Assembly: GCF_003711105.1 (NCBI RefSeq)
Contig: NZ_CP023865.1
Coordinates: forward strand, 5,729,001-5,793,000
Reading direction: 5' to 3'
Origin: Actinoplanes teichomyceticus ATCC 31121
Lineage (GTDB): Bacteria; Actinomycetota; Actinomycetes; Mycobacteriales; Micromonosporaceae
DNA length: 64,000 bases
Shown: piece after piece, positions 194 to 20,621 of the stretch
Layout: each line of letters starts with the position of its first letter
Position numbering within the stretch: position 1 is the stretch's first letter
Made by a program: the position numbers and the translations under genes
Notes under the pieces: generated by a model
Told to the model about the DNA's origin: nothing
Database searches by the model: none
Seen by the model: the letters and a program-made list of their open reading frames with translations, nothing else

Positions 194-236
194 TCCCCGC
201 GACATTTCACCGTTCCCGATGGGAGGAACCCCAACC

Positions 237-869: not shown

Positions 870-888
870 GCGGCTGCGGAGCACGGCG

Positions 889-1807: not shown

Positions 1808-2479
1808 TCACTTCCGCTGCGCGATCAGCAGGTATTCGTGTGCCCGGTTGGTGAGCATCGGGTCGTCCCCGCCGATCGGTCGCGGATAGAGGTGGATCCG
1901 CTCGTCACCCAGGGTCAGGTGACGTCCCAGCAGCCGGCCGACGTCCCAGGCGAGCGGGACGAACGCGCCGGCGAGGCGCCGGTTCTGCACGGCCACCACC
2001 GCGTACGCCCCGGGCCGCAGCGTCGCGGTCAGCGCCGTGAACGCCTCGTCGACCGCCGCCAGGTACGCCTCGTAGTCACTCACGGCGTACAACTGGCCCC
2101 GCACCGCAGAATCGGCGTCCAGGGCGGTGCCGAAGTACGGCAGGTCGGTCACGATCAGGTCGACGGATCCGTCCGGCACCGGCGGGCGGCGGGCGTCGGT
2201 GCAGATCACCACCTGCCCCGGGTACCGCCGCAGCCGTTCGGTGGCCTGCGCGGCGCGCTCCGGCGAAACCTCGATGCCCACGCCGCGGCGGCCGGTGATC
2301 GAGGCGGCCACCAGCGTCGTGCCCCACCCGCAGAACGGGTCGAGCACCAGGTCGCCGGGGTGGCTGAACTCGGTGATCAGCGGGGCGATCTGGCTGACCC
2401 AGCCACACTGCCCGGCCGCCGCGGGCGGCGTGTGCTCCGGGTCGTCCCCGGTGAGCACGTGCCAGCTGGACACTCCCAT
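1808..2479 (-). CDS. SAM-dependent N-methyltransferase of the DNA/RNA-methylase fold
   Basis: A 223-residue protein starting at ATG 2479, which shares one base with the stop of the exporter gene (TGATG), so translation is probably coupled. A SAM-binding motif DPFCGWGTT (motif I) near residue 57 precedes a DLPYF motif (motif IV, DPPY-like). This order and these motifs mark enzymes that methylate exocyclic amino groups of nucleic acids. There is no target-recognition domain and no nuclease partner. As the last gene of the cluster operon it may instead methylate a nitrogen of the pathway product, or modify a nucleic-acid target for resistance. The fold is clear; the substrate is not. Confidence 0.75.
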   Translation of the reverse strand: MGVSSWHVLTGDDPEHTPPAAAGQCGWVSQIAPLITEFSHPGDLVLDPFCGWGTTLVAASITGRRGVGIEVSPERAAQATERLRRYPGQVVICTDARRPPVPDGSVDLIVTDLPYFGTALDADSAVRGQLYAVSDYEAYLAAVDEAFTALTATLRPGAYAVVAVQNRRLAGAFVPLAWDVGRLLGRHLTLGDERIHLYPRPIGGDDPMLTNRAHEYLLIAQRK

Positions 2480-3708
2480 CAACGTTCCTCCAGTACGGTC
2501 ATGGCGGTCGGGGTGCGGACCGCTTCGGCGGGCAGGCGTGGCTCCAGGCGCAGCACCCCGAGCGCGGACACGGTCACGCCGGCGGCGAGCACCAGCCACA
2601 TGCCGGCCGGGGACAGCGCGAGCAGCCCGGTGAGCACGGCCGGGGCGAGGGCGGACGGCACCGCCCAGGACAGCTGGTAGACCGCGATGTGCCGGCCCCG
2701 GGTCTCCTCCGGGGCCGCGTTGACCACCAGCGCCGAGGCGGTCGCGCCGTGCAGCAGCTCGCCCAGCGTGAAGATCGCGGTGGCGACGAACACACCGACC
2801 AGCAGGGTGACGCCGGTGGACACGATGCCGAGCACCGCGAAGGACACGAAGGACACCGCGAAGACGGCGGCGCCGGCGGCCACCGCCCGGGTCCGGCGGA
2901 ACCGGGTGAGCAGGCGGGTGACCTGGATCTGGGCGAGCGCGATACCCACGGTGTTGACCGCGTAGAGGGTGCCGATCAGCGAAGCCGGCTGGTCCAGCTC
3001 GGTGGTGAGATAGACCGGCAGGCTGACCGCGAGCACCATGTAGCCGAACGCGGTGGGGATGTTGAGCAGGGTGAGCCCGAGGAACGGCCGGTTGCGGACG
3101 ACCGTGCGGTAGCCCCCGGACGGCGGCGCCGCGCCGGCCTCGGCGCGGTGCGGTGCGGGAATGGACCGGATCAGCGCGGCCGCCCCGGCGAACGCCGCGG
3201 CGCTGGTCAGGACGATCGCGGTGAAGGCGTGGTCGTCGCCGGCCGCCAGGACGCCGCTCGCGATCAGGCCGCCGGCGCCCAGGCCGGCGTTACGGATGCT
3301 GCGCTGCGCGGCGATCAGTCTGTCGCGCTCGGTGCCCGTGGAGATCTCGGCGACCAGCGCGTGGACCGACGGTGAGAAGGACACGTCACCGAAGGCCACG
3401 ACCAGGACCGCCAGGAAGAGCGGCACGGCCGAGTCGACCAGCGGGTAGCAGGTGAAGGCGGCGGCCCGCAGCAGATAGCCGCCGGTCACCACGGCCCGTG
3501 CGCCGAACCGGTCGACCAGCACGCCGGTGAGCGGGTTGCTCAGCAGTCCGAGCACCGCCGCGGCGCTGACCACGGCACCGACCTGGCCGATCGGCAGGCC
3601 GGTGGTGTGGTGGAAATAGATCAGCGACAGGGGCAGGTACATGCCACTTCCGGTGGCGTCGACGATCATCGCCGCCATGTACCGGACGCGGATCCCGGCG
3701 CTCGTCAT
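2479..3708 (-). CDS. MFS transporter, probable product exporter
   Basis: A 409-residue membrane protein with about twelve hydrophobic segments. Start ATG 3708 overlaps the ATP-grasp stop by four bases (ATGA); the longer frame upstream is antisense-like and arginine-rich. The loop after TM2 reads GVLVDRFGARAVVTGG, the MFS motif A pattern (GxLaDrxGrr), and STGTERDRLIAAQRSIRNAGLG resembles drug/H+ antiporters of the MMR or YqjV type. Its place at the end of a biosynthetic operon, coupled at both ends, suggests proton-driven export of the cluster product and self-resistance. An unrelated drug-efflux role is less likely given the tight coupling. Confidence 0.85.
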   Translation of the reverse strand: MTSAGIRVRYMAAMIVDATGSGMYLPLSLIYFHHTTGLPIGQVGAVVSAAAVLGLLSNPLTGVLVDRFGARAVVTGGYLLRAAAFTCYPLVDSAVPLFLAVLVVAFGDVSFSPSVHALVAEISTGTERDRLIAAQRSIRNAGLGAGGLIASGVLAAGDDHAFTAIVLTSAAAFAGAAALIRSIPAPHRAEAGAAPPSGGYRTVVRNRPFLGLTLLNIPTAFGYMVLAVSLPVYLTTELDQPASLIGTLYAVNTVGIALAQIQVTRLLTRFRRTRAVAAGAAVFAVSFVSFAVLGIVSTGVTLLVGVFVATAIFTLGELLHGATASALVVNAAPEETRGRHIAVYQLSWAVPSALAPAVLTGLLALSPAGMWLVLAAGVTVSALGVLRLEPRLPAEAVRTPTAMTVLEER

Positions 3709-4961
3709 GACACCTCCGCGATCTCGAACCCGGCGGCGATCCGGTCGCCCAGCTTGCGCAGCCGGGCCTCGCACTCGGCGCGGCTGGGCGCGCTCGCCAC
3801 GACGCAGGCCAGGAAGTCGGCCGACCCCGCGGCGGGCGGGATCACCTGGCCCGGCCGGGCCCAGTACCAGTGCCGCCGCACCCACTCCTCCTCCGGCGCC
3901 GGCGGAACCGCGCGGACCAGGCCGGGCCGCTTCATCAGGATCACCTGGCCGGCCATGGTCCGCGGCCGGGAGCCGGCCAGCCCGTCCAGGCCGGGGGTGG
4001 GCAGGCCGAGCTGGGTACGGACCTCCAACTCGGCCAGGTTCACCCCGAACAGCACCTCGAAGACCTCCCGGACCTTCCCCCCGCTGCTGCGGCAGGCGAT
4101 CTCACAGAGCACCAGCCGGTCGTCGGGGGTGTGGAACACCTCGGCGTGGAACGCGTGGTCGGTGAGCCGGCCGGACCGGTCGGTGAGGGCGGCGAGAACC
4201 CGGTCGACCAGGGTCAGCAGCCGGTCGGTGAGCGGGTCCTGCGGATCCAGCGCCAGGTCGACGCGCGGGCCCGGGTCGGTGCCGAACGACGCGAGGTCGT
4301 ACTGGTACTGCGACGGCCAGGCGACAGCCGTGCGCCCGGCGCGGACGAAGCCGTCGACGTGGCACATCCGGCCGGCGACGAAGCTCTCGACGATGAGGTC
4401 GTCACGCGACCGGCCGGGACCGAACGCCTCGGCGAGCACCGCCTCCAGCCCGGCCTCGTCCCGGACGATCCGCAGGCCGATGCTGTTGTAGCCGGCGCGC
4501 TGCTTGAGCACGACGGGCAGGCCGTGCTCGGCCACGAACGCCCGGACCTGGCCGGCGTCGGACGCCGCGGCGTAGGGAGCGACGGGGATGCCGGCGGCGC
4601 CGGCCAGCCGCTTCATCACCAGCTTGTCCCGGAACGGGAGGATGTCGCCCGGGTACGGCCCGGCAAGCCCGCGCCGCTCGCGCAGCGCGGCGGCCACCTG
4701 CAGGTCGGCCTCGTGCGGGGCGAGCACGTGGCTCACCCGGTGCTGTTCGGCGAGCGCGGCGGCCCGCCCCGGCATGTCGCGCTCGTAGTCGTCGAGGACT
4801 TCGAGGTGGCGGAAGCCGAGGTGGTCCGGCGGCACCCGCTCGCCGAAGGCCTCCAGCTTGTCCCGGGCGGCGACGATCACCACGTCGCCGTCGTAGTCGG
4901 CCAGCCAGCGCTGGTACGGGAACGGTTCGAACGGGTTGCGGTGCAGGACGAGTACGGCCAT
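3705..4961 (-). CDS. ATP-grasp carboxylate-amine ligase (second of two)
   Basis: A 418-residue protein. An N-terminal pre-ATP-grasp domain (about 1-110) leads into FRDKLVMKRLAGAAGIPVAPY, the lid pattern of ATP-grasp ligases. LPVVLKQRAGYNSIGLRIV (about 150-168) holds the ATP-binding lysine, and LCEIACRSSGGKV holds the metal-binding Glu. Enzymes of this type join a carboxylate to an amine through an acyl-phosphate; relatives include BacD-type amino acid ligases. Start ATG 4961 follows the first ATP-grasp stop after one base. A pair of different ATP-grasp genes suggests two successive amide or peptide bonds in the product, or one bond plus activation of an unusual acceptor. Substrates cannot be read from sequence. 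Confidence 0.85.
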   Translation of the reverse strand: MAVLVLHRNPFEPFPYQRWLADYDGDVVIVAARDKLEAFGERVPPDHLGFRHLEVLDDYERDMPGRAAALAEQHRVSHVLAPHEADLQVAAALRERRGLAGPYPGDILPFRDKLVMKRLAGAAGIPVAPYAAASDAGQVRAFVAEHGLPVVLKQRAGYNSIGLRIVRDEAGLEAVLAEAFGPGRSRDDLIVESFVAGRMCHVDGFVRAGRTAVAWPSQYQYDLASFGTDPGPRVDLALDPQDPLTDRLLTLVDRVLAALTDRSGRLTDHAFHAEVFHTPDDRLVLCEIACRSSGGKVREVFEVLFGVNLAELEVRTQLGLPTPGLDGLAGSRPRTMAGQVILMKRPGLVRAVPPAPEEEWVRRHWYWARPGQVIPPAAGSADFLACVVASAPSRAECEARLRKLGDRIAAGFEIAEVS

Positions 4962-4962
4962 C

Positions 4963-6246
4963 TCAGCCCACCATCACCGGCACGACGTCGGCGGCCCGGG
5001 CGAGCGTGACCTCACCGGACGGCTCCTGGACGCGTACCCGCAGGTGCTCCTCGACGATCCGCGCCCCGCGCTCCAGCGCGGCCTGCGCGCTCTCCGCCTG
5101 CACCGCGACCAGGCCGAGACGGTCCCAGTTGTCGTGGCAGTCGCGCACCTCGTCACCGGGCCGGGCGCTGATCCGCACCGCCAGCACCCCCTCCTGCCGG
5201 GCGGCCTCCTCGACCCCGTCGACCGACAGCACCCGGCCGGCCGGCGCCACCAGGGCGCGCACCGCGGCCGTACGGGTCGCCATCGGCCGGTCCGGCAGCT
5301 CGTCGACCAGCCGGAACGGCCAGCCCACGGCGAGCCGGTCGAGGTCGATGCCGAAGGCCGCCCGGACCAGCTCGGGTATGGCGTCGCCGCCGTAGCGGTT
5401 GTGCCCCTCCACGATCCGCGGGCCCTGCCCGGTCAGCTTGACCTCGGTGTGTCCGGCGCCGTCGGCGATGCCGATGTGGTCGAGGAACCGGGTCACCGCC
5501 GCGCACACCCGGGCGCGCTCGTCCTCGCCGATGCGGGCCGGCACCACGTGCCCGAGCTCGGCCGGCCGGGTCGGGTGGGTGAGCTTCTCGGTCACCGTGA
5601 CGACCACGTGCCGGCCGGCGAAGCTGAACGTCTCGACACTGAACTCGCGGCCGTCGAGGTACTCCTCCATGAGGAAGTCCTCAAGCACCAGCAGCGTGGA
5701 CACCCGGTCGGTGCGGGTGCCGCGCAGCCGCCGCACCTGCCGCCAGACCCGGTCGTGGTCGCCGGGACCGTCCACCCGGAAGACGCCGATGCTGGCGGTC
5801 GCCGTGGTCGGCTTCACCACGTACGGGTACCCGTGCCGGGCGCCGAACGTCACCAGGTCGCGCGGGTCGTGCACCGGCGCGGCGGCGACCGCGGCGGCGT
5901 CCCGGCCGGCCAGGTGCTGCCGCATGGCCAGCTTGTCGCGCAGCCGGCGGGCGGCCGCGTAGCCGGTCCCGCCGAGACCCAGCAGGTCGTTGACCCGGCC
6001 GGCGATCTCCAGTCCCGGCTCGGTCAACGACACCACCCGGTCGATGCGCCACTGCCGGTGCAGGTCGCGGACCACCGGCTCGGCGTAGGCCCAGTCGGTG
6101 TAGTCCCCGACGACCGTCACGTCGGCCAGCGCGCGCTGCCGCTCTGTGATCTTGGTCGGGTGCTGGAGCAGCAGCACCCGCAACCCCAACTCCTTGGCCG
6201 CGGCGACCGTGGCGTCTACTCCGCCCACCACCAGAAGGGTTGGCAT
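4963..6246 (-). CDS. ATP-grasp carboxylate-amine ligase (first of two)
   Basis: A 427-residue protein with a GAGAGGAAG ribosome site just before ATG 6246. The N-terminus (MPTLLVVGG) is a Rossmann-like pre-grasp domain. YPYVVKPTTATASIGVFRV carries the ATP-contacting lysine, MEEYLDGREFSVETFS the grasp core, and GAGHTEVKLTGQGPRIVEGHNRYGG the Mg-binding Glu and Asn. This layout matches L-amino acid ligases (BacD/YwfE-like). It shares only short motifs with its neighbour at 3705-4961, so this does not look like a recent duplication. It probably ligates a cluster intermediate to an amino acid. It lies between the cysteine-synthase-like gene and the second ligase, in one operon. Confidence 0.85.
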   Translation of the reverse strand: MPTLLVVGGVDATVAAAKELGLRVLLLQHPTKITERQRALADVTVVGDYTDWAYAEPVVRDLHRQWRIDRVVSLTEPGLEIAGRVNDLLGLGGTGYAAARRLRDKLAMRQHLAGRDAAAVAAAPVHDPRDLVTFGARHGYPYVVKPTTATASIGVFRVDGPGDHDRVWRQVRRLRGTRTDRVSTLLVLEDFLMEEYLDGREFSVETFSFAGRHVVVTVTEKLTHPTRPAELGHVVPARIGEDERARVCAAVTRFLDHIGIADGAGHTEVKLTGQGPRIVEGHNRYGGDAIPELVRAAFGIDLDRLAVGWPFRLVDELPDRPMATRTAAVRALVAPAGRVLSVDGVEEAARQEGVLAVRISARPGDEVRDCHDNWDRLGLVAVQAESAQAALERGARIVEEHLRVRVQEPSGEVTLARAADVVPVMVG

Positions 6247-6262
6247 CGGCTTCCTCTCTCTT

Positions 6263-7207
6263 TCAGTGGGACCACTGGCTCAGGTAGCGCTCGCCGGTGT
6301 CCGGCAGGAGCACGACGATGGTTCGCCCGGCGCTGTCGGGGCGGCGGGCCACCCGGATGGCCGCGTGCACGGCGGCGCCGGAGGAGATCCCGGCGAGCAC
6401 GCCCGCCCGGCGGGCCAGCCAGCGCGTGGTGTCGGCCGCCTCGTCGTCGCGGACGGTGAGGACCTCGTCGATGAGCTCACGGTCGGTGGTGGGCGCGATG
6501 AAGCCCCCGTTGTAACCGGGGATGGCGTGGGTGCCCGCCTCGCCGCCGGAGAGCAGCGGCGAGGCGGCCGGTTCGACGGCGATGGCGCGCAGCCCGGGCT
6601 TGCGCTCCTTGAGGTACGCGGCGGCGCCGCACAGCGTGCCGCCGGTGCCCACGCCGCAGACCAGGATGTCCACGTCCCCGGCGGTGTCCGCCCAGATCTC
6701 CGGGCCGGTGGTGGCCCGGTGCGCCCGCGGGTTCTCCGCGTTGTCGTGCTGCCGGGCGAACCAGGCGCCCTCGGTCGCGGCCACGATCTCCTCGGCGCGG
6801 TCCACGCAACCCTGATAGCGCAGTTCCCGCGGGGTCTGCACCACCTCGGCGCCGAAGACGCGCAGCAGCGCCACCCGCTCGGCCGTGGCGTTGTCCGGCA
6901 GCACTATGACGCAGCGGTAGCCGCGCGCGGCGGCCAGCGCGGCCAGCGCGATACCGGTGTTGCCCGAGGTGGCCTCGACCACCGTGCCGCCGGGGCGCAG
7001 CCAGCCGCGCTCCTCGGCGGCGCGCAGCATGAACAGCGCGGCGCGGTCCTTGACGCTGGCGACCGGGTTGGCCGACTCCAGCTTGGCGATCACCTCGGTG
7101 TCCGGCGCCAGGCCGTCCACCGGCAGGCGCAGCAGTGGGGTGTTGCCGATCAGGTCATCGATGGCGGCCGCGACGCGTCGCGTGGCCGGGAGCGCGGTGG
7201 TTGTCAC
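6263..7207 (-). CDS. Cysteine-synthase-family PLP enzyme (beta-replacement)
   Basis: A 314-residue protein from GTG 7207, with GGAGG six bases upstream. Fold-type II PLP marks are complete: Lys53 in SVKDR (Schiff base), the TSGNTG substrate loop at 80-85, GVGTGGT for PLP phosphate binding, and the C-terminal LPDTGERYLS. O-acetylserine sulfhydrylases and relatives such as SbnA replace a beta leaving group of an activated serine with S, N or other nucleophiles. Inside a predicted N-N cluster it may build a beta-substituted alanine with a nitrogen nucleophile, rather than cysteine. A role in cysteine supply cannot be excluded, because the sequence alone does not distinguish nucleophiles. Confidence 0.85.
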   Translation of the reverse strand: MTTTALPATRRVAAAIDDLIGNTPLLRLPVDGLAPDTEVIAKLESANPVASVKDRAALFMLRAAEERGWLRPGGTVVEATSGNTGIALAALAAARGYRCVIVLPDNATAERVALLRVFGAEVVQTPRELRYQGCVDRAEEIVAATEGAWFARQHDNAENPRAHRATTGPEIWADTAGDVDILVCGVGTGGTLCGAAAYLKERKPGLRAIAVEPAASPLLSGGEAGTHAIPGYNGGFIAPTTDRELIDEVLTVRDDEAADTTRWLARRAGVLAGISSGAAVHAAIRVARRPDSAGRTIVVLLPDTGERYLSQWSH

Positions 7208-7222
7208 CGGTTACCTCCGTTG

Positions 7223-7447
7223 TCAGTAGTTGGGCGCCTTCTTGAGCAGGTGGCGGCGCTCGACGATCTCCGGCTGGTAGACCCTCGCGTCCCACTCCGG
7301 CTGGTCGACCGGCTCCAAGGCGATCGAGACCACGCCCGGATCGCATCCGAGCGCTCCGGTGACCGCCTCGGTCACCCGGCTGAGCAGGCGCTGCTCGGCC
7401 TCGGGCGCCAGCGGCACCGGAAAGAACTTGATGTTGACGTGCGGCAT
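7223..7447 (-). CDS. 4-oxalocrotonate tautomerase family protein (PptA-like)
   Basis: A 74-residue protein with Pro directly after the initiator Met, the catalytic base of the tautomerase superfamily. The start PHVNIKFFPVPL and the internal ISIALE and W-D-A-R-V-Y stretches resemble E. coli PptA (YdcE). Members interconvert keto and enol forms or protonate at carbon. ATG 7447 overlaps the upstream lyase stop as TGATG. A dedicated tautomerase next to nitrosuccinate-pathway genes could act on an enol, imine or azo/hydrazone form of the intermediate; that is speculation from context. Confidence 0.85.
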   Translation of the reverse strand: MPHVNIKFFPVPLAPEAEQRLLSRVTEAVTGALGCDPGVVSIALEPVDQPEWDARVYQPEIVERRHLLKKAPNY

Positions 7448-8850
7448 CAGTCAATCCCCTCGTGGTAGCGGTGCAGGACCCGGTCGACGAGCTCGCCCGC
7501 GGCGCCGACGTAGCCGGCCGGGTCCAGGGTGGCCGCGACCCGGCCGGCGTCCATCACGTCGGCGACGCGCGGGTCGGCGGTGGCGACGTCGCGCAGCGAC
7601 TTCCCCCGCTGGTGGGCGCGAAGGGCCAGGTCGACGACGATCTCCTCGGCCACGGCCGGGCCGAACGGCGGGCCGAGCCACACCGCGAGTCGCCCGGCGG
7701 CGGCCAGCTGACCGAACACGTCCAGGTTGGCGCGCATCCGTGCCGGGAAGACGGTCAGCCCCTCGGTCAGCTCGGCGGCGGCGTCGGCCGCTCCCCCGGC
7801 CAGCCGCAGCGCCTCGCGCAGTGGCTGCCATTCGGCGTGCCAGGCCCCACCGGGCCGCTCGTCCTCGGCGACGAGGCAGTGCGCCACGCTGGCGGCGAGC
7901 AGCGGCACCTGGGTGGCCGCCGTCCGGATCCGGGTGGCCAGCACCGGCTGCCGCCGGTGCGGCAGAGCGCAGGACAGGCCACCCCCGGGTGGGGCCGGCT
8001 CGGCCAGCTCACCGATCTCGGTACGGGTCATCACCTGCACGTCGGCCGCCAGCGCACCGAGGACGCCGGTGGTCAGGCTGGCCGCGGTGGCGATCTCGTG
8101 CAGCGGCGTGCGGACGGTGTGCCAGGCCAGGGCCGGCTCGGCGAGGGTGACCTCCTCGGCGAAGGCGCGGATCAGCCGGGCCGCGTACGCCTCGCCGGAA
8201 TCGCCGGCCAGCCGGGCGTACTCCAGGTAGCCGCCGAGCGTGCCGGCCTCGCCGCCCAGCTGCACCGGGAGCCCGCCGTCCAGCACCGAGCGCAGGCGCC
8301 GCCGGGCGTCGAGCACCCCGGTCAGCCAGCCGGCCGCCTTGAGCCCGAAGGTGATCGGCGCCCCGTGCTGGGTGAGCGCCCGGCCGGGCATCGCGGTGGC
8401 CCGGTGCCGCGCCGCGAGCGCCGCCAGCGCATCGGCGGTGGCCGCCAGGTCCGCGTCGATCAGCCGCAGGGCCCGGTCGGCGACCAGCATCAGCCCGGTG
8501 TCCAGGATGTCCTGGGCGGTGGAGCCGCGGTGCACGTACTCCGCGGCGGCCGGGTCGACGGCCGTCACCGCGGCGGTCAGCTCCGCCACGAGAGCGTCCA
8601 CCGGGTTGCCGGCCTTGACGCCGCGCCGGGCGATCCGGTCCAGGTCGAGGCGGCCGGCGCCGGCCACCGCGGTGATGGTGGTGGCGTGCTCGTCGGGCAC
8701 CACGCCCAGCTGTGCCTGGGCCCGCACCAGCGCGGCCTCGGCGTCGAGCATCGCCTGCAGGACGGCCTCGTCGTCGGTGACCGCCTCGATCGGGCGGCCG
8801 GCGCTGGACGGGCTGAGCAGTCCGTGGTCGAATCCCGGGTCCTTGGTCAT
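7447..8850 (-). CDS. Fumarase/adenylosuccinate-lyase superfamily, nitrosuccinate lyase-like (CreD-like)
   Basis: A 467-residue protein from ATG 8850, overlapping the CreE-like stop by four bases; the open frame continues upstream only as an antisense-type extension. HRGSTAQDILDT (107-118) is the superfamily first conserved region, and QHGAPITFGLK (161-171) also fits 3-carboxymuconate-cycloisomerase-like members. In the cremeomycin pathway CreD eliminates nitrous acid from nitrosuccinate, leaving fumarate. The coupled CreE-like gene directly upstream supports this role. The normally strict GSSxMPxKxNP loop is altered to GLSCALPHRRQP at 291-302: the serine is kept, but Lys and Asn are Arg and Gln. 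A hydrazinosuccinate-type or adenylosuccinate-type lyase is the alternative. Confidence 0.8.
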   Translation of the reverse strand: MTKDPGFDHGLLSPSSAGRPIEAVTDDEAVLQAMLDAEAALVRAQAQLGVVPDEHATTITAVAGAGRLDLDRIARRGVKAGNPVDALVAELTAAVTAVDPAAAEYVHRGSTAQDILDTGLMLVADRALRLIDADLAATADALAALAARHRATAMPGRALTQHGAPITFGLKAAGWLTGVLDARRRLRSVLDGGLPVQLGGEAGTLGGYLEYARLAGDSGEAYAARLIRAFAEEVTLAEPALAWHTVRTPLHEIATAASLTTGVLGALAADVQVMTRTEIGELAEPAPPGGGLSCALPHRRQPVLATRIRTAATQVPLLAASVAHCLVAEDERPGGAWHAEWQPLREALRLAGGAADAAAELTEGLTVFPARMRANLDVFGQLAAAGRLAVWLGPPFGPAVAEEIVVDLALRAHQRGKSLRDVATADPRVADVMDAGRVAATLDPAGYVGAAGELVDRVLHRYHEGID

Positions 8851-12801: not shown

Positions 12802-12833
12802 GACGAAAGCTCCTTCTCGCAGATCCGGTTCGG

Positions 12834-14051
12834 TCAGGGGCGCATCGCTTCGGCGACGGCGTCCACCACGACCCCGGCCTGGTGCGGGTTCAGGCGGGGA
12901 TCACACAACGAGTGGTACGCGCGACCCAGCCGGCTCTCGTCCGGCACGGTCGGCCCGCCCACGCATTCGGTCACGTCTTCGGCGGTCAGCTCCAGGTGCA
13001 GGCCGGCCGGCTCGGCGCCGCCGGCGCGCACCGCGGCCACGAAACCGGTGGCCTCGGCGACCACGGTGTCCAGGTGGCGGGTCTTCAGGCCCACACCGGT
13101 CCGGACGGTGTTGCCGTGCATGGGGTCGCAGATCCAGGCGACCCGGTGACCGGCCGCCGCCACCGCGTGCACCAGGGGCGGCAGGCGGTCGGCGACGCGC
13201 CCGGCCCCCATCCGGCTGATCAGGGTGAGCCGGCCCGGCAGCCGATGCGGGTCGAGCAGCGCGCAGATGCGCACCGCGTCCTCGGGCGTGGCGTCCGGAC
13301 CGATCTTGACGGCCACCGGGTTCCCGAGGCCGGCCAGGAAGTGCAGGTGTGCGCCGCCGATCTGGCGGGTACGGTCGCCCACCCACGGCAGGTGGGTGGA
13401 GCGCAGGAACCACTCGCCGGATTCGTCGTCGAACCGGGTCAGCGCCTGTTCGTACTCCAGGATCAGCGTCTCGTGGCTGGTGTCCAGCGGCCCTCCGGCC
13501 CCGGCCAGCTCCTCGATCACCTGCTTGGCGGTGTAGTACGCGGACAGCAGCCGGTACGGGTCCGGCTGGCGGGCCGCCGTCGTGGGCGCCGGATCGTTGA
13601 CCATGAGCCCGCGGAAGACCGGCAGAAGCCGGTCGCCGACCTGCTCGGTCGGGGCCGATCGCGGCTTGGCGAACTGCCCGGCGATCCGCCCGACGGTGAC
13701 CGCCCGCCGGCCGGACGACTCGGCGAGCCGCTCGCCGAGCGCGGCCAGCAGCCCACGTTTACCGCGGGCCGCCTCGGCCGCCGCGCGGCCCAGTGGCTCC
13801 GCGCAGTCACCGCCCTGCAGCAGGACGGCCGCTCCCTCGGCGACCTGGGCGAGATCGTCGCGGAGCGCGCGGATCTCGCCGACCGCCGTCAGCGGAGGCA
13901 GCCCGGACAGGTAGTCGGTGACGGCGGCGAGTTCGCCCGGATCGGGCCAGTCCGGCTGTTGTACGGCGGGCAGCGCCCGCCAGGTGTCCGGCCGCCAGAG
14001 GCCGGCGTCGATTTCCTCGAAGTTGGGTGCCAGAAGCCGTGGCGAAGGCAT
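12834..14051 (-). CDS. Class II DAHP synthase (plant/PhzC type)
   Basis: A 405-residue enzyme with GGGGGAG before ATG 14051. Class II marks: LLQGGDCAE, GRIAGQFAKPRS, DPMHGNT, LHLELT and DPRLNP, covering the metal and phosphoenolpyruvate sites. It makes 3-deoxy-D-arabino-heptulosonate-7-phosphate from PEP and erythrose-4-phosphate, the first shikimate step. It is shorter than the housekeeping actinobacterial enzyme (about 460 residues) and resembles PhzC. Cluster copies like this usually raise flux to chorismate and may escape aromatic feedback. It is the first gene of the long biosynthetic operon, 32 bp ahead of pabAB. Confidence 0.93.
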   Translation of the reverse strand: MPSPRLLAPNFEEIDAGLWRPDTWRALPAVQQPDWPDPGELAAVTDYLSGLPPLTAVGEIRALRDDLAQVAEGAAVLLQGGDCAEPLGRAAAEAARGKRGLLAALGERLAESSGRRAVTVGRIAGQFAKPRSAPTEQVGDRLLPVFRGLMVNDPAPTTAARQPDPYRLLSAYYTAKQVIEELAGAGGPLDTSHETLILEYEQALTRFDDESGEWFLRSTHLPWVGDRTRQIGGAHLHFLAGLGNPVAVKIGPDATPEDAVRICALLDPHRLPGRLTLISRMGAGRVADRLPPLVHAVAAAGHRVAWICDPMHGNTVRTGVGLKTRHLDTVVAEATGFVAAVRAGGAEPAGLHLELTAEDVTECVGGPTVPDESRLGRAYHSLCDPRLNPHQAGVVVDAVAEAMRP

Positions 14052-14221: not shown

Positions 14222-15775
14222 TTATATGCTGCGACGCATCCCCGGATTCCGGACATCACGGCCACCGGTGGGGAAGCGACTCCCGGTATAGCGTTCGACC
14301 ACCATCGCGAGGCGATCCACACCAGAAAGAATCTTCTCGGGTGGCGTGGCGGCGTAACCCAGGACCAGCCCTCGCCCCAGCCGGTCCGGCTCGTCGGCGA
14401 AGGAGGACAGAGGGTAGACACGCAACCGCGACTCCCGGCTGAGCTGGGCCAGTCGTCTCTCGTCGGTGTCGTCGGGGGTCCACGCGACCAGGTGCGTCCC
14501 GGGTGGAGCGTCGGTGACCGTGACGAAGCCGCCGAGTTTCGCGCGCAGCCCGTCGACCAGGGCCTCACCACGCTCGGCGTAGATGCCGCGCATCCGGCGG
14601 ACGTGCCGGGCCAGGTGGTTGCCGTCGATGAATTCGGCGAGCGCGGCCTGGGTGAGGATGTTCAGCGAGTTCACCGTGGCGCGCTGGACGGCGGCGGCCA
14701 CCTGCGCGAGATCGGGCGGGACGACCAGATAGGCCAGGCACATGCCGGGGAAGAGGATCTTGCTGAACGTGCCGACGTAGATGGCGCGTCCCTCGGCGTC
14801 CGTCTGGTGCAGCGGCGGACCGGGGTTCTGCGACCAGAACTCGCCGTCGTAATCGTCCTCGACCACCCAGCCGTCCCGCTCCCGGGCCCAGTCCAGCAGC
14901 CGCCGGCGGCGGGCTTCGGACATGCGGACGCTCAGCGGGAAGTGGTTGTTCGGCGTCACCACGGCCATCCGGGCATCCGGATATCGCTCCGCGCCGACGT
15001 CGATGCACATCCCCTCGGCGTCGACCGGAACCGGGCAGAGGCGGACACCCGCCGAGTGCAACGCGCCCCGGATGGCCTGCAGACCCGGGTCCTCCACGAG
15101 GACCTGGTCGCCGGGCTCCAGCAGCGTCATCGCCACCATGTGCACCGCGGTCTGCGCGCTGGGCTGCACGATCACCTGTTCGGGAGTGCACCGCACGCCG
15201 CGCATGAGACCGAGCATGGCGGCGATGCCCTTGCGCAGCGGCCAGTAACCGGCCGGGTCCCGGTGGGTGTACAGCGCGCCGGTCAGCTGATGCGAGGCGC
15301 GCAGCAGCAGATGCCCCCAGACCTTGGCCGGGAACTGGTCGAGGGCGGGCACCCCGAGGGTGAACGGCCGGTCGGGGTAGCGCAGCTGGTCGTGCGCCGG
15401 GGTGAAGTAGGCGGCCGCCTCGGCCATCCGGGTGGCGGCCCGGGAGATCCGCAGCTCCGGGCGGGCCGCCGGACGCGGGGGCGACGCGCCCTCGTCACGA
15501 GCGGGCTTGCGGGAGGCCACCACGGTGCCGGAACCGACCCGGCCGTCGAGGTAGCCCTCGGCCAGCAGCCGGTCGTAGGCGACGAGCACCGTGTTGCGGG
15601 ACACCCCGAGCTCCTTGGCCAGGGTGCGGGTGGCCGGCAGGCGGGTGCCCGCCGGCAGCTGCCCCGCCTCGATGCTCCATCGCATCTGCTCGTACAGCTG
15701 CTGGTACAAAGGAATTGTCGAGTTGCGGTCGAGAACGAGACCGCTCCCGGGAAGTGCGGGAGAATCTCGAGGCAT
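14222..15775 (-). CDS. MocR/GabR-type transcriptional regulator (GntR HTH plus aminotransferase-like domain)
   Basis: A 517-residue regulator. Residues about 18-90 are a GntR winged helix (IPLYQQLYEQMRWSIEAG, LPATRTLAKELGVSRNTV, YDRLLAEGYLDGRVGSGTVV). The rest is a fold-type I PLP aminotransferase-like domain with VTPNNHFP, EDDYDGEF and the PLP-lysine pattern GTFSKILFPG. Such proteins sense PLP, an amino compound or its aldimine, and change DNA contacts. It lies between the two biosynthetic blocks in the same orientation, with a repeat-rich promoter immediately downstream, so it is the likely pathway-specific regulator. Catalytic transamination is less likely, because the HTH is intact. Confidence 0.92.
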   Translation of the reverse strand: MPRDSPALPGSGLVLDRNSTIPLYQQLYEQMRWSIEAGQLPAGTRLPATRTLAKELGVSRNTVLVAYDRLLAEGYLDGRVGSGTVVASRKPARDEGASPPRPAARPELRISRAATRMAEAAAYFTPAHDQLRYPDRPFTLGVPALDQFPAKVWGHLLLRASHQLTGALYTHRDPAGYWPLRKGIAAMLGLMRGVRCTPEQVIVQPSAQTAVHMVAMTLLEPGDQVLVEDPGLQAIRGALHSAGVRLCPVPVDAEGMCIDVGAERYPDARMAVVTPNNHFPLSVRMSEARRRRLLDWARERDGWVVEDDYDGEFWSQNPGPPLHQTDAEGRAIYVGTFSKILFPGMCLAYLVVPPDLAQVAAAVQRATVNSLNILTQAALAEFIDGNHLARHVRRMRGIYAERGEALVDGLRAKLGGFVTVTDAPPGTHLVAWTPDDTDERRLAQLSRESRLRVYPLSSFADEPDRLGRGLVLGYAATPPEKILSGVDRLAMVVERYTGSRFPTGGRDVRNPGMRRSI

Positions 15776-15801
15776 TGATCCCCCCTTGCGAGTGCCGAGT
15801 C

Positions 15802-15830
15802 AGGCCGGACGCCAAAACGGCGCCCGGCCT
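15802..15830 (-). terminator. Hairpin downstream of the upper cluster operon
   Basis: Arms 15802-15813 and 15819-15830 pair over 12 bp (one position a G-U wobble in the minus-strand RNA) around a 5-nt loop. It lies 95 nt beyond the stop of the half adenylation gene and 27 nt upstream of the MocR start, so it may end the upper operon or sit in the regulator leader. No T-run follows. Confidence 0.5.
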
Positions 15831-15924
15831 CGCTGACAATTTTCACGGACCACTCGCGACACGACGGGATGCAACCGATCCGTCAAGTCCGGAGTGGACC
15901 GCCGGAATTCTCGTTCCAGCAAAG

Positions 15925-16674
15925 CTAGCCGACACCCAGAAGTAGGTCGGCCATTTGTGTCGGATTATCGACCACATAAGGCGCGTCAGCCGCCGGTAGT
16001 GTCGTCGCAATGGGCCGGTCGCCCGATTGCGTGGCGAGATGGACGACCTCACCGGAGGCCAGCCTCTGATAGGTCTCGATCTGCCCGGCCAGGGTGCTCA
16101 GCCCGCCCGAAGCGGCCGGCACGCGCCACGGATTGCGCACCGCGTGGTCCAGCGCGAACCCGGTGAGTGCCACCACCAGCGGCGACCGCCGCGGATCGAG
16201 ATACGCGATCTTGCAAACGTCGTCCTGATCGGCGCAGATCCGCGGGGCGACGCTCACCGCGCCGGCGCCGGCCTCCTCGATCGATACCGCCCGGTAGTCC
16301 GGCCTCACGCCGGTGAGGCGCTCGTTGCAGGCGAGCAGGGCCGCGCCGGTGTCGTCGGTCAGCACCACGTCCGGATCGCCGAGCAGGCCGACCGGCCACG
16401 GATCCCGGGACTGGATCGGCGTGCTGATCACCACCGCGCCGGCGATCAGGCCGGCGATCAGCCCGACGAATCCCTCCAGCGGGCTCATCGCCACGATGGC
16501 CAGGCGTGTCTGCTCGCTGTCGCTGGGCTCACCGATGTGTCGCGCCAGGTTCGCGGCCCGGCGCAGCAGCTCGCCGTACGCCATCGTCTGTTCCCGGCCG
16601 TCGGGTGACTGGCACCGGACCGCCGTGCCGGTCGCCCACCATCCGTCCGTCAGTAGGTCCTCAAGCCATCGCAT
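15925..16674 (-). CDS. Half-length adenylation (AMP-binding) protein
   Basis: A 249-residue protein with a strong ribosome site (GGGGAAAGAGG) before ATG 16674; it overlaps the luxC-like stop by 14 bases. Residues 30-120 resemble the N-terminal part of acyl-CoA synthetases (TMAYGELLRRAANLARH, LAIVAMSPLEGFVGLIAGLIAGAVVISTP). The protein ends before any TSGSTGxPK-type P-loop, the adenylate core or the C-terminal lid. It is therefore not a complete ligase. It could be a scaffold or partner of the LuxE-like protein, a substrate-binding half-enzyme, or a decaying CreM-type ligase. The intact frame and translational coupling argue for function. Confidence 0.65.
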   Translation of the reverse strand: MRWLEDLLTDGWWATGTAVRCQSPDGREQTMAYGELLRRAANLARHIGEPSDSEQTRLAIVAMSPLEGFVGLIAGLIAGAVVISTPIQSRDPWPVGLLGDPDVVLTDDTGAALLACNERLTGVRPDYRAVSIEEAGAGAVSVAPRICADQDDVCKIAYLDPRRSPLVVALTGFALDHAVRNPWRVPAASGGLSTLAGQIETYQRLASGEVVHLATQSGDRPIATTLPAADAPYVVDNPTQMADLLLGVG

Positions 16675-18028
16675 CCTCTTTCCCCCCCATGTCGACGATG
16701 CCCTTCGGGTGAAGCAGAAAGACCGACAGGTTCCCGTCGTGCGGCGTGCCCGGCGCCGCCGCCCACGGCAGCGTCCGGCCGCGGGTGACCTTGCCGATGC
16801 GCGGATCGGCGACGGCGCCGGCCACGATGTCCTCGTCTTCGGTCAGCAGGTTGGCGACCAGCGCGCCACCGAGCAGGTCCGGCTCCCCGCGGCGCCACGG
16901 GGCCACCACGACGAACGGGAACGGCAGTTCGAGGCCGACCGCCGGGTGCCGCGGATCGTCCGTGGACAGCACGGTCGGCAGCGGCCGGTACGAGCCGTCC
17001 GGCAGGCCGGTCACCGGCTCCGCGCCCACCGGGGCGTGCACGGTCAGCTCCTCCCGCAGCCCGCGCAGCTGCCCGGCGAGCACCTCCGCCCGGGCGGCGT
17101 CGACCGCGGGCAGCACCGCGTCCGGCGCGGTGACGACCGGGCCGCCCAGCTTGTCGAAGCGGGCCGCCAGCCCGTCGGCCACCGCCCGGACGTCGCCGGT
17201 GGTCAGCACCAGCGAGATGTTGTTGCACCGGGTGCCGCCGTCGTAGGCCGCCGCGGTCGCGAGGTGGTCGAGAACCTCGTCGGTGGGCGCGACGTCCAGC
17301 AGGGCACGGCTGCGCCCCGGGCCCCGCGTCGTCACCGACGCGCTGCCGCGCCAGCGGGCCACCGCCTCGTCGCCGCCGTAGACGATGCCCCGGTCCGCGG
17401 ACTCCAGCAGATAGGAGCCCACCGCGTGGCTGCCGGGCAGGTAGGACACCCGGTGCGCGGGCAGCCCCGCGGCGAGCAGCGCGAGGACGAGCCGGCGGGC
17501 GGTGAACGGGTCCCGGGTGCCGGGCCGGACCAGCACGCTGAAGCCGAGCGCGAGGGCGTGCAGCCACGAGTCGTTCGGCGCGGGATGGTTGCTGGCCATC
17601 ACGGCCGCGAAGATCCGCCCGGCCGGCACCCAGACGGTCCGGTAACCGCTGCCCTGCTCGGTGGCGGGCAGTTCGGCGGCCACGGTACGCGGCAGCCGGT
17701 CGATCGCGCGCACGATGTCGGCGGTGGCGTGGCGGACGGTTCCGCGCGGCAAACCGGTGCCCAGCGCCACGCGGCGCTCGTACTCGTCCGGGGTCTCCCC
17801 GTCGAGCTCGGCGTTGGCGAACAGCTCGGCGGCGCGCACCAGCAGGGCGTGCTCGACCGGCCGGCCGTCGGCGGCGCGCCGGGCCTGGGCCAGGGCGCCG
17901 GCCGCCATGAGCCGCGGCGCCTGACCCACGTCGGCCAGCGGGGTGCCGCACACGTCGGCCAGCACCGCCCGGTCCAGGCTGTGCACCGTGCGACCGCAGA
18001 CGATCGGCTCGATCGCGGCGGCCGACAT
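16661..18028 (-). CDS. LuxC-like acyl/aryl reductase
   Basis: A 455-residue protein in the LuxC acyl-protein reductase branch of the aldehyde dehydrogenase superfamily. Cys268 in GGTRCNNISL is the probable acyl-accepting cysteine, and WVPAGRIFAAVMASNHPAPND and FSVLVRPGTRDPFTARR fit the nucleotide-binding half. It would reduce an enzyme-bound acyl thioester to the aldehyde with NADPH. ATG 18028 shares one base with the LuxE-like stop (TGATG), so the two are made together. There are no luxA/luxB genes. In Streptomyces griseus the related pair GriC-GriD reduces 3-amino-4-hydroxybenzoate, which fits an aryl acid substrate here. Confidence 0.82.
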   Translation of the reverse strand: MSAAAIEPIVCGRTVHSLDRAVLADVCGTPLADVGQAPRLMAAGALAQARRAADGRPVEHALLVRAAELFANAELDGETPDEYERRVALGTGLPRGTVRHATADIVRAIDRLPRTVAAELPATEQGSGYRTVWVPAGRIFAAVMASNHPAPNDSWLHALALGFSVLVRPGTRDPFTARRLVLALLAAGLPAHRVSYLPGSHAVGSYLLESADRGIVYGGDEAVARWRGSASVTTRGPGRSRALLDVAPTDEVLDHLATAAAYDGGTRCNNISLVLTTGDVRAVADGLAARFDKLGGPVVTAPDAVLPAVDAARAEVLAGQLRGLREELTVHAPVGAEPVTGLPDGSYRPLPTVLSTDDPRHPAVGLELPFPFVVVAPWRRGEPDLLGGALVANLLTEDEDIVAGAVADPRIGKVTRGRTLPWAAAPGTPHDGNLSVFLLHPKGIVDMGGKEDAMA

Positions 18029-19122
18029 CAGTACACCCCTTCGATGACCCGGTTCGCGCCGACCGTCGCGATCGTGCCGACCTCGGCCAGACCGTCGACC
18101 GCACCGCCCTCGGCCGGCTCGACCCGCACCGCGGTGTCCCGCTCCATGACGTTGGGCAGGAACATCTCCTCGGTGACCAGGCTGAGCCGCACCCGCCCGC
18201 GCTCGCCGTAACCGACCGGCTCGCCGTCCTCGACCAGGTCGATCCGGATCGCCTCGGCCCACGGCTCGAACACGCAGCGGTGCTTGTCGCCGGGTTGCGG
18301 CGGGCGCTGCGGCGCCACGCCCATCAGCGTGTTGCCGTAGATGCCGATGACGGTGGTGTCGGGGAAGAAGATCTCGTCCACCTGCCGCAGGCTCTCCGGG
18401 CTGAACGACGTGCCCGCCCAGATGATCGTGTCGACCCGGCGGTTGACCAGCTCGTGCAGCTCCGGGTCGGCGCAGATCGCCTCGATCAGCGGCGGAGTGG
18501 TGCTGAGCACCCCGATCGGCTGGGAGCTCAGCACGTCGCGGGCCTGGTCCAGCAGGTGGCGCACATAGCGCCCGACGATCTCCGTGTCACCGGCCGCGAC
18601 CAGGCGCTTGACCCAGCGCGGGTCGAAGTCGACCGGGTAGAACAGCCCCCCGCCGAGGGCGGCGTAACGCGCGCAGTCGTACGCGAACACGTGCGGCCCG
18701 CTCGGGCCCAGGTGCAGCCAGTGCGCCGGGTCGGGCAGGTGGTGCGCGCGCAGCCGCTCGAAGGCCCAGGACAGCAGGCGGCTGCGGTAGTCGCGGTCCA
18801 CGATGCGCTTGGGCGCGCCGCTGCTGCCACCGGACTCGTACACCTGGAACCCGGCGCCGGTGAGCCCGCGCGGGATGAGGTCGCCGGCCGGCGTGGTGCG
18901 CAACCGGTCGCTGAGGTCCGGGAAGCGCAGCAGCCCGGCCGCGTCGGTCACCTCCTCGATCGGGTCGAAGCCCAGCTCGGGCAGCTGCCGCAGCCAGAAG
19001 GGCGATCCGGTCTCCGGGCTGAAGTGCCACCGCATGAGGTGCCGGACGCGCTCGTCGAAGGTCAGGCCGGTGGTCGCCGGAACGCTGGTCGTCGTCATCA
19101 TCTCCCCCGCAGTCACGCTCAT
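18028..19122 (-). CDS. LuxE-like acid-activating enzyme (acyl-protein synthetase)
   Basis: A 364-residue member of the LuxE/PaaK adenylate-forming group. YESGGSSGAPKR (95-106) is the ATP phosphate-binding loop, followed by IIWAGTSFSPESL, IGIYGNT and GERGRVRLSLVTEEMFLPN, matching the later adenylation motifs. It should activate a carboxylate as an acyl-AMP and hand it to the LuxC-like cysteine. ATG 19122 overlaps the SDR stop (ATGA). An internal ATG pair near 19098-19101 is possible but has its purine-rich stretch too close. By analogy with GriD the substrate may be an aminobenzoate; this is inference from the pabAB gene in the same cluster. Confidence 0.82.
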   Translation of the reverse strand: MSVTAGEMMTTTSVPATTGLTFDERVRHLMRWHFSPETGSPFWLRQLPELGFDPIEEVTDAAGLLRFPDLSDRLRTTPAGDLIPRGLTGAGFQVYESGGSSGAPKRIVDRDYRSRLLSWAFERLRAHHLPDPAHWLHLGPSGPHVFAYDCARYAALGGGLFYPVDFDPRWVKRLVAAGDTEIVGRYVRHLLDQARDVLSSQPIGVLSTTPPLIEAICADPELHELVNRRVDTIIWAGTSFSPESLRQVDEIFFPDTTVIGIYGNTLMGVAPQRPPQPGDKHRCVFEPWAEAIRIDLVEDGEPVGYGERGRVRLSLVTEEMFLPNVMERDTAVRVEPAEGGAVDGLAEVGTIATVGANRVIEGVY

Positions 19123-19970
19123 CGACCGGCGGCGACGGCCGGCTCAGGGAACGACATGGCCAGTCCCACCGTACGGGTGGCCGCCAAGTCGGCGGTCACC
19201 TCGGCGAGCTTGAGCTGCACCCGCTCGACCGCGTCGGTGCCCAGCGGCAGCCGGAAGGTGGACTCGGCGGCGTCGCCGAGCGCGATGATCGCCGCGGCGG
19301 CCTTCGCGGGGTCGCCGGCCTGGGCGCCGTTGTGCGTCCCGGCCCAGGCACGCACCCGGCCGGAGGTGGGGGCATAGTCGTCGATGACCCGGCCGGCCAG
19401 GCGTACCGACGACGGGTCGAGGAAGTTCGTGCGGAACAGCCCCGGTTCGACCAGGGAGACCCGGATGCCCAGCGGCTCGAGCTCCACCCGCAGCGCCTCG
19501 CTGAGACCCTCGACGGCGAACTTGGTCGCGGCGTAGACGCCCCAGCCGGGCTTGGCGCTGAAGCCGAGGATCGAACTGATGTTGATCAGGTGCCCCCGGC
19601 GCCGGCCGCGCATCGCCGGAAGCGCGCTGCGGACCACGTTGAGCAGGCCGAACACGTTGGTTTCGAAGACCGACCGGACCTCCTCGTCGCTGGCCTCCTC
19701 GACCGCGCCGATCAGCCCGCGGCCGGCGTTGTTGACGAGCACGTCGATGCCGCCGAAGCGGTCCACCGCCGCGGCGACGGCCGCGTCGGCCTGCCCGGGG
19801 TCGGTGACGTCGAGCGGGACGGCGAGCAGCCGGTGGTCGTAGGCGGCGAGCCGGTCGAGCGCGTGCGGGTCACGCGCCGCCGCGACGACCCGTTCGCCGG
19901 CGTCGAGCAACTGTTCCACGATCTCGGATCCGAGGCCGCGAGACGCCCCGGTCACGAACCAGACAGACAT
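19119..19970 (-). CDS. Short-chain dehydrogenase/reductase
   Basis: A 283-residue classical SDR: TGASRGLG (NAD(P) loop, 7-14), NNAG, and the catalytic Ser-Tyr-Lys as ISS and YAATK. GGAAG precedes ATG 19970. The pattern GLSEALRVELEPLGIRVSLVEPG is common in oxidoreductases related to retinol or 17-beta-hydroxysteroid types. Placed directly ahead of the LuxE/LuxC pair, it may reduce the aldehyde they make to an alcohol, or oxidise a pathway alcohol. The gene ends in a four-base overlap with the LuxE-like gene. Confidence 0.85.
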   Translation of the reverse strand: MSVWFVTGASRGLGSEIVEQLLDAGERVVAAARDPHALDRLAAYDHRLLAVPLDVTDPGQADAAVAAAVDRFGGIDVLVNNAGRGLIGAVEEASDEEVRSVFETNVFGLLNVVRSALPAMRGRRRGHLINISSILGFSAKPGWGVYAATKFAVEGLSEALRVELEPLGIRVSLVEPGLFRTNFLDPSSVRLAGRVIDDYAPTSGRVRAWAGTHNGAQAGDPAKAAAAIIALGDAAESTFRLPLGTDAVERVQLKLAEVTADLAATRTVGLAMSFPEPAVAAGR

Positions 19971-19998
19971 GTAACTTCCTCTCCCTCACGAAGGGGTG

Positions 19999-20574
19999 CT
20001 ACAGCGCGAGTGCGGCCTTGCGCGCCTCGTCCCGGGCCCGGTCCAGGTCGCCGGCGAGGCGGTCGGTGAAGTCGGTCGGGCGCAGCGTGATCGCGGTGAC
20101 CTGGGTGAGCCCCAGGAAGCCGAGCCAGTAGTCGAGGTACGACGACTGGAAGTCCGCGCCGAAGTGGGCGGGCAGACCGGGCGCGTACGCCCCGCTGGTG
20201 TAGACCACGCAGGCGGTCCGGCCGGCCAGCAGGCCGGTGTACCCGGTCTGCGGGCTCAGCCGGAACGTCAGGCCCGGCTGGGTCACGACGTCGATGAAAT
20301 GCTTCAGGACGTACGGGATGCCGAAGTTCCACATCGGCACGGAGAACAGGTAGTGGTCCGCGGCGGTGAACCGGTCGACCATGGCCCTGGACCTCCGCCG
20401 GAACGCGGCAACGCCGTCGGCGGCCGTCGGCAACGGCGTATCGAAGAGGTCGACGACGTCGACGGTGGCGTCCGGGTTCCGGTCGCGGAACGTGTCGAGG
20501 AACGCCTCGGCGACGGCACCTGAGCGGCTGCCGGGACCGGGCGGGGTGGCTTTGACGTACAGCAGTCGGGTCAC
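19999..20574 (-). CDS. FMN-dependent NADH azoreductase/quinone reductase (AzoR-like)
   Basis: A 191-residue flavodoxin-like protein. VTRLLYVKATPPGPGSRSGAVAEAFLDTFR is the N-terminal FMN-binding pattern of AzoR/AcpD, and VPMWNFGIPYVLKHFIDVV matches their conserved middle. GTG 20574 is chosen for its AGGAC ribosome site six bases away; ATG 20589 and ATG 20634 are alternatives, but 20634 would bury an inverted-repeat operator in the coding region. AzoR enzymes reduce azo bonds and quinones by two-electron transfer from NADH. As first gene of the upper cluster operon it could reduce a diazo/azo intermediate or protect against quinoid forms. The gap to the SDR start is 28 bp. Confidence 0.82.
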   Translation of the reverse strand: MTRLLYVKATPPGPGSRSGAVAEAFLDTFRDRNPDATVDVVDLFDTPLPTAADGVAAFRRRSRAMVDRFTAADHYLFSVPMWNFGIPYVLKHFIDVVTQPGLTFRLSPQTGYTGLLAGRTACVVYTSGAYAPGLPAHFGADFQSSYLDYWLGFLGLTQVTAITLRPTDFTDRLAGDLDRARDEARKAALAL

Positions 20575-20600
20575 TGTCTGTCCTACCATCACCGAGTCGG

Positions 20601-20621
20601 GTGAGAGCGCTTCAATCTCAC
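20601..20621 (-). promoter_or_regulatory. Inverted-repeat operator candidate upstream of the AzoR-like operon
   Basis: GTGAGA (20601-20606) and TCTCAC (20616-20621) form a perfect 6-bp inverted repeat with a 9-bp spacer, centred about 37 bp upstream of the chosen start. It lies in the divergent region between the cluster and the antiporter gene. It does not resemble the ACATGGC palindrome of the other cluster promoter, so a different regulator may bind. In the rest of the gap to 20906 only a CTGATCC direct repeat (20747-20762) was noted. Confidence 0.5.

Follow-up and report, generated by a model that had tools for sequence, protein, structure and literature searches.

What does the gene block at the left end of this stretch of Actinoplanes teichomyceticus DNA make, and where would the second nitrogen of its product come from? 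The window, as we call the whole 64,000-nucleotide stretch, is C1:5729001-5793000 of the genome (G000), and its positions 1808-20634 carry sixteen minus-strand genes, most of them overlapping or separated by short gaps, with coding-type GC bias. A sequence-only reading had placed here, in one minus-strand block, genes for p-aminobenzoic acid (pABA), nitrous acid, carboxyl reduction and amino acid ligation. Every gene that it named is present, backed by Pfam, NCBIfam or PDB matches and by synteny in relatives; it overlooked a methyltransferase, a half-length ANL protein, an arylamine N-acetyltransferase (NAT), an Rv2466c-like reductase and everything to the left of the window. The block is real and conserved, and the window edge cuts the cluster, the left arm of which lies beyond. 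We put at roughly 0.62 the probability that this is a hybrid cluster, in which a pABA-derived aryl-diazonium arm is combined with a peptide arm of CysK, ATP-grasp ligases and a non-ribosomal peptide synthetase (NRPS).

The aryl arm includes a class-II DAHP synthase (12834..14051; PF01474, 442.9 bits, above the Pfam cut-off and below that of the NCBIfam equivalog) and a PabAB aminodeoxychorismate synthase (10744..12801; TIGR00553, 344.3 bits against a cut-off of 328.4). PabAB has the PIKGT motif, to which the lysine gives its meaning, and a PabC-like lyase lies next door in the left arm, all of which bears out the pABA route. Carboxyl reduction is likewise supported, by an EhpF/LuxE-like ATP-dependent carboxylate-activating protein (18028..19122; PDB 3hgu, EhpF, E 4e-64; no Pfam match) beside a LuxC/aldehyde-dehydrogenase-like reductase (16661..18028; Aldedh 41.1 bits, above cut-off; LuxC 12.6 against 21). 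These genes are accompanied by a short-chain dehydrogenase/reductase (SDR; 19119..19970; PF00106, 175.3 bits) and an AzoR-like flavoprotein (19999..20634, start uncertain; Flavodoxin_2, PF02525, 128.1 bits, above cut-off; azoreductase model 62.6 against 188). The window part of the peptide arm comprises a CysK-like enzyme with the pyridoxal phosphate lysine motif (6263..7207; TIGR01139, 360.7 bits against a cut-off of 350.95), ATP-grasp ligase 1 of the L-amino acid ligase type (4963..6246; ATP-grasp_4 75.9 and LAL_C2 64.9 bits, both above cut-off), ATP-grasp ligase 2 (3705..4961; PF02222 31.4 bits, above cut-off; LAL_C2 29.2, just below 29.4) and a major facilitator superfamily (MFS) exporter (2479..3708; PF07690, 149.8 bits). 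All of these are on the minus strand.

The scan of window genes, which covered those through the antiporter at 20907..22193 plus 22656-23150, turned up no CreM-type enzyme to form the N–N bond; the gene at 22656-23150 had no family match. The left arm was located by searching the genome directly to the left of the window. The full cluster spans ≈33 kb (genome C1, ≈5717072-5749634), and the window shows its right part. In Rhizocola hellebori, which has a partial version of the cluster, CreE is followed by ANL, PabC-like lyase, sulfotransferase, binding protein, CysD, CysN, Rv2466c and NAT, and the genes that come after CreE there sit immediately to the left of the window in A. teichomyceticus. 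The left arm holds the PabC-like lyase (51% identical to the Rhizocola protein) in an operon with an ANL adenylating enzyme (the two genes overlap by 4 bp), then sulfotransferase, PAPS_reduct/CysD-type and CysN-type genes. Beyond these is a 1276-residue protein with adenylation (A) domain, peptidyl carrier protein (PCP), thioesterase and a long insert, which from its architecture we tentatively take to be indigoidine-synthetase-like; a relative (L063) gave a sub-threshold nitroreductase match.

The left-arm ANL enzyme appears to fill the CreM-type gap and is a candidate diazotase. It matched the AvaA6 diazotase model over its full length with 372.3 bits, 198 bits more than the next model (174.5), and is thus closer to the diazotase references than to CoA ligases. 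Its ATP motifs are present (SSGTTGMPK, GASEMG, TGDVGY, VTGKVLK), including the Mg-binding Glu, which may be equivalent to CreM E352. The Rhizocola orthologue, 76% identical, matched structures 8tf7 and 9bq0 at 294.5 bits, and beyond the four top PDB rows other ANLs reached at most 75.7 bits. Both structures are of Tri17, an N-nitrosylase described in the cited part of PMC11705231 as also diazotising anilines. The N–N chemistry proposed from the window alone thus gains support from an enzyme that the window does not contain.

A CreE search of 300 genomes of the family led to three genomes, all of one genus, to which a fourth (G705) was added later. These four, which include Micromonospora antibiotica and M. 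matsumotoense, belong to a genus other than Actinoplanes and carry the full set. Synteny with the first three runs from the methyltransferase through the CPA2 antiporter, and in G705 the two blocks are in reversed orientation relative to each other. Its synteny in four genomes of a different genus shows that the block is no chance assembly. The Micromonospora-type clusters have an extra gene, for a nitronate monooxygenase (PF03060, 308.1 bits), between the tautomerase and CreD. Of the genes compared, the ANL is the best conserved, with 89–90% identity between A. teichomyceticus and the four relatives; the sulfotransferase is next at 86%. At E ≤ 1e-150, ANL was found in 7/354 family genomes and 2/394 genomes of a class-wide sample, its own genome counted in both. 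Two of these ANLs are distant (G034 and G503, 47–48% identity) and also lie near CreE/CreD, adjacent in G503 and ≈10 kb off in G034. Within the genus Actinoplanes a CreE-like match (E ≤ 1e-60) occurred in 4 of 67 genomes; the other three were only 39–45% identical, and a sister with the same CreE was rejected.

The two arms also occur apart. In G182 and G014, genes for CysK, both ATP-grasp ligases and an MFS-type protein accompany an NRPS resembling that of the left arm, and no CreE or PabAB match was present in the 20 kb of each. Conversely, Rhizocola has the aryl arm, with no CysK, ligase or NRPS match in 42 kb. An aryl-diazonium arm and a peptide arm thus appear to have fused in the window cluster. 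A related cluster in G222, of the same genus (L061, L062), has the ATP-grasp pair, exporter, two CysK, CreE, DAHP synthase, PhzE-like and DhbA-like proteins and a flavin adenine dinucleotide (FAD) hydroxylase, with no CreD match in 40 kb; judging by the PhzE-like synthase and DhbA-like dehydrogenase, it is probably based on 3-hydroxyanthranilate. G014 also encodes a protein with hexapeptide repeats, a possible serine acetyltransferase.

Which nitrite would the diazotase use? The expected source is the CreE homologue (8847..10757, minus strand; PDB 8cp2, 436 bits) with the CreD homologue (7447..8850, minus strand). CreD scored 588.7 bits with the nitrosuccinate lyase model, below the cut-off of 650, as does the canonical Micromonospora CreD at 635.7. 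We aligned CreD in 135 rows (the best 120 of 5287 database matches, own included, with ScCreD and 14 loci; some rows are possibly duplicates). S123A, S303C, K308R and N310Q were found in the window CreD and in none of the other 134 rows; S302, H253, R341, W346 and H347 are retained. According to the cited part of PMC13411527, S302, S303, K308, N310, R341 and H253 of ScCreD are essential and changes of S123 leave ≤0.5% activity; K308R and N310Q are absent from the mutants given there, and inactivity of this CreD is therefore a prediction. Functional sites are moderately enriched among the CreD changes (4 of 13; hypergeometric P 0.028, assuming 13 functional residues, entered by hand, in 127 near-invariant columns). 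Other change-rich CreD rows (L074 and L077, nine each) retain the catalytic residues.

CreE deviates further. The residues named in the cited part of PMC10404684 are R13, R266, R276, R409, R412, N413, R416, R577 and N62, of which R266, R409 and N413 with their loop belong to the aspartate entry chamber. Among 136 rows, R266G and R409D occur in the window CreE alone, and one further row has N413D as well. About 18 residues of the loop bearing R266 and R276 are missing, so that R276 cannot be judged; R13, W51, N62 and R577 are retained. In a 17-row set, 16 of 92 otherwise-invariant columns deviate in the window CreE and 15 of 91 in that of Rhizocola, against 0–6 in the other 15 rows. In a metagenomic CreE relative from the Joint Genome Institute (JGI) collection (P0009), aligned over 44% of the query at 74% identity, both ends are kept but most of the substrate domain is gone; the same loss may have gone a step further here.

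At the tested sites, the four relatives have canonical residues in both CreE and CreD. In trees that included ScCreD and the enzyme of Streptomyces sp. V2, both window proteins grouped with canonical Micromonospora orthologues (CreE support 99/97), and the residue losses are therefore taken as derived. The sequence-only reading had named a position outside the nitrosuccinate-forming clades as speaking against it; the position found is the opposite one. Its claim that CreE and CreD make nitrous acid from aspartate is doubtful for this strain, where residues reported as essential are lost. In our judgement the two enzymes are probably impaired in A. teichomyceticus, and its nitrite is probably not derived from aspartate.

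One alternative goes further: the nitrite branch has been lost, the ANL lacks nitrite, and the cluster is decaying here or yields a compound without an N–N bond. We consider this unlikely, although it survives best of the alternatives, which are not mutually exclusive. Besides the residue losses and the truncated P0009, it draws on relative-rate tests, in which CreE had 2.0–2.3 times more changes on this branch than in Micromonospora (87/38, 81/40 and 84/41 with three outgroups, chi2 13.9–19.2). CreD was not significantly accelerated (41/36, 43/30, 42/33). CreE as the sole accelerated gene was rejected, since SDR (32/16, chi2 5.3) and the half-ANL protein (19/9, chi2 3.6) gave similar ratios with fewer changes; DAHP synthase was skewed the opposite way (24/40, chi2 4.0). 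A frameshift behind the odd stretch of CreE was also rejected, there being no stop and no better frame. Relative to two Micromonospora, the ratio of nonsynonymous to synonymous differences (pN/pS) was 0.54–0.57 for CreE and 0.43–0.44 for CreD, within the 0.38–0.57 spanned by the 13 genes with a value (MocR gave none). With ordinary rates and pN/pS for CreD and a CreE pN/pS within its neighbours' range, long-standing pseudogene decay is not favoured, and the genes do not appear to be long dead. Loss of the branch also sits poorly with the 89–90% identity of the ANL to its relatives, and with the genome's own capacity for nitrite: narG, at 1562 bits, is over its cut-off and can provide nitrite. 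No close match to the nitronate monooxygenase was found in the genome, in a search without a positive control, which favours loss. A single CreE-like gene reaches E ≤ 1e-60 in this genome, and its NarK-type proteins are below cut-off (291.6 against 311.7).

Relatives elsewhere suggest another supply. A survey of EhpF-like proteins (80 named loci, the best 80 of 508) contained five Streptomyces loci (L110, L136, L146, L149, L151) with one order, PabC-ANL-DsbA-like-NarK-like-LuxE-LuxC-AzoR-DAHP synthase-PabAB, of which PabC is covered only partly in L151 and PabAB only partly in L149. Their ANL is 65–67% identical to that of A. teichomyceticus. The DsbA-like protein is small. An Rv2466c orthologue in these loci was rejected (28% over 89 residues, E 0.001). 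At E ≤ 1e-10 neither CreE nor CreD had a match in the 14–21 kb covered of each locus, which fits the report, in the cited part of PMC10777205, of 72 of 134 ava-type clusters without CreE/CreD homologues. The nitrite source thus looks exchangeable between CreE/CreD, NarK-like transport and cellular nitrate reduction.

Several points weigh against the hybrid cluster as proposed. CreE and CreD look impaired in this strain, as does the Rhizocola CreE, and the 42 kb of Rhizocola hold no CreD match. Two of the five Streptomyces NarK-like proteins were run against NCBIfam and just missed the subfamily cut-off of 311.7, with 294.8 and 287.3 bits. The tautomerase, LuxC and azoreductase labels have weak family backing, their models being below cut-off. 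The ANL, at 372.3 bits, is far under the AvaA6 equivalog cut-off of 975 and is therefore a relative and not an AvaA6 orthologue. Finally, two structures known by record title alone outscore Tri17: 8ztz ("putative AMP-binding enzyme", 335 bits) and 9xb8 ("fatty-acid-CoA ligase FadD", 299.6 bits).

Most ANL enzymes are CoA ligases, and the last of these points invites a reading in which the ANL would ligate CoA to an aryl or acyl substrate and the clusters of this family would yield an amide derived from pABA, with no N–N bond. The ANL of the G222 cluster, which also matched AvaA6, scored higher with a CoA-ligase model (121.4 against 104.3 bits) and was rejected as a diazotase. The preference of the A. 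teichomyceticus ANL for the diazotase model by 198 bits, and the company of CreE/CreD or NarK-like genes in relatives (in G503 ANL, CreD and CreE are adjacent), make this reading rather improbable. Least probable is a joint repurposing of CreE and CreD for another amine, with carboxylate-binding residues lost and cofactor and leaving-group residues kept: the retained residues of both proteins, the chemically conservative replacements in CreD and its ordinary rate would suit it, but CreE has a shortened loop and a raised rate, the Rhizocola CreE has no CreD match nearby, and there is no candidate substrate.

The remaining genes of the region are minus-strand unless stated. In the block are a DNA-methylase-type S-adenosylmethionine methyltransferase (1808..2479; PF01555, 65.7 bits), a small tautomerase-like protein (7223..7447; Pfam 20.7 against 22, PptA 60.6 against 83), a MocR/PdxR-type regulator (14222..15775; 380.6 bits against a cut-off of 320) and the 249-residue half-ANL protein, which resembles the N-terminal half of ANL enzymes and is kept in relatives (15925..16674). 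It lies between MocR and LuxC and has no obvious ATP loop. On the plus strand are the Rv2466c-like mycothiol-dependent reductase, last but one of the left arm, with the same neighbours in Rhizocola and Micromonospora (219..869; PF22234, 235.5 bits), NAT, conserved beside Rv2466c and CysN (850..1719; PF00797, 140.4 bits), and the CPA2 cation/proton antiporter (20907..22193), of uncertain cluster membership and adjacent in Micromonospora-type clusters too. Read by eye, L176:14320-15516 and its counterparts encode a periplasmic-binding-type protein between the sulfotransferase and CysD genes, and ABC-transporter-like genes lie near NAT in L089, L195/L196 and L056. Kitasatospora paracochleata (L159) and Streptomyces sp. 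TBY4 (L127) have NAT, an EhpF/LuxC-like pair and CreE/CreD together, L159 adding PhzE-like and DhbA-like genes; these loci are another candidate aryl N–N family. In Sphaerimonospora thailandensis (L147), DAHP synthase, DhbA-like, PhzE-like, NAT, an EhpF/LuxC-like pair, a FAD hydroxylase and ANL occur together.

For the hybrid cluster, we infer from gene content which reactions take place and in what order, how the arms join and what is made. DAHP synthase, PabAB and PabC would supply pABA, the carboxylate of which would be activated and reduced to an aldehyde by the EhpF/LuxE-like and LuxC-like proteins, and the SDR may take the aldehyde to the alcohol. The AvaA6/Tri17-family ATP-dependent enzyme would combine nitrite and the aryl amine to a diazonium, and the AzoR-like flavoprotein may reduce the N–N group. 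The Micromonospora-type clusters would obtain nitrite from CreE/CreD and those of Streptomyces through the NarK-like transporter; in A. teichomyceticus, the genome of which has narG, it would have another origin. CysK, the two ATP-grasp ligases and the A-domain/PCP/thioesterase protein would assemble a small peptide or a modified amino acid. This would be coupled to the aryl N–N unit through an azo, hydrazone, hydrazide or amide link, and the MFS protein would export the conjugate, with sulfotransferase, CysD/CysN, NAT and methyltransferase as tailoring enzymes. Only tentatively do we propose the specific product, a bacterial pABA-derived 4-(hydroxymethyl or formyl)benzenediazonium or arylhydrazine coupled to a peptide or amino acid, with an exchangeable nitrite source. 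A possible, hypothetical product class is that of mushroom agaritine, an amino acid conjugate of a 4-hydroxymethyl aryl hydrazine. Titles and abstract openings of the open-access papers retrieved yielded no agaritine biosynthetic gene, no agaritine-type chemistry in bacteria and no description of this gene set.

Parts of the cluster resemble known systems. In griseoluteic-acid-type pathways an EhpF-like protein likewise stands beside an aldehyde-dehydrogenase-like protein, and EhpF acts there on a phenazine. ATP-grasp 1 matches L-amino acid ligase structures and, weakly, the BacD (bacilysin) and DdaF (dapdiamide) models, far below their equivalog cut-offs. According to the cited parts of the sources, ava-type systems also use CreE/CreD and an ATP-dependent ANL diazotase on an aryl amine, but with a 3-amino-4-hydroxybenzoic acid (3,4-AHBA) ring, a type II polyketide synthase (PKS) and later removal of the diazo group (PMC10777205), whereas here there are pABA genes, carboxylate reduction and no PKS seen. 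The cremeomycin cluster (cre) likewise has CreE, CreD and an ANL enzyme, CreM, but its substrate is 3-amino-2-hydroxy-4-methoxybenzoate (PMC11705231). The spinamycin cluster (spi) has a diazotase active on an aniline without hydroxyl and ends in a hydrazide; it differs in its aryl polyene and fused SpiED (PMC11705231). The tasikamide clusters (aha and tsk) also join an aryl diazonium arm to a separate peptide arm, made of alkyl 5-hydroxyanthranilate and a cyclic NRPS pentapeptide (PMC11705231) where here we find pABA, CysK and ATP-grasp ligases.

Of 469 predicted diazo clusters, only 20 are tied to products in a 2026 survey, by the cited part of its text (PMC13061610). Against this background, the aryl precursor of the cluster family described here is defined, a diazotase candidate is at hand and nitrite has two or more alternative supplies; the origin of the second nitrogen is therefore testable by comparing strains. 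The union of an aryl-diazonium arm with a peptide arm of CysK/ATP-grasp type, itself found alone elsewhere, would be a natural experiment in pathway coupling.

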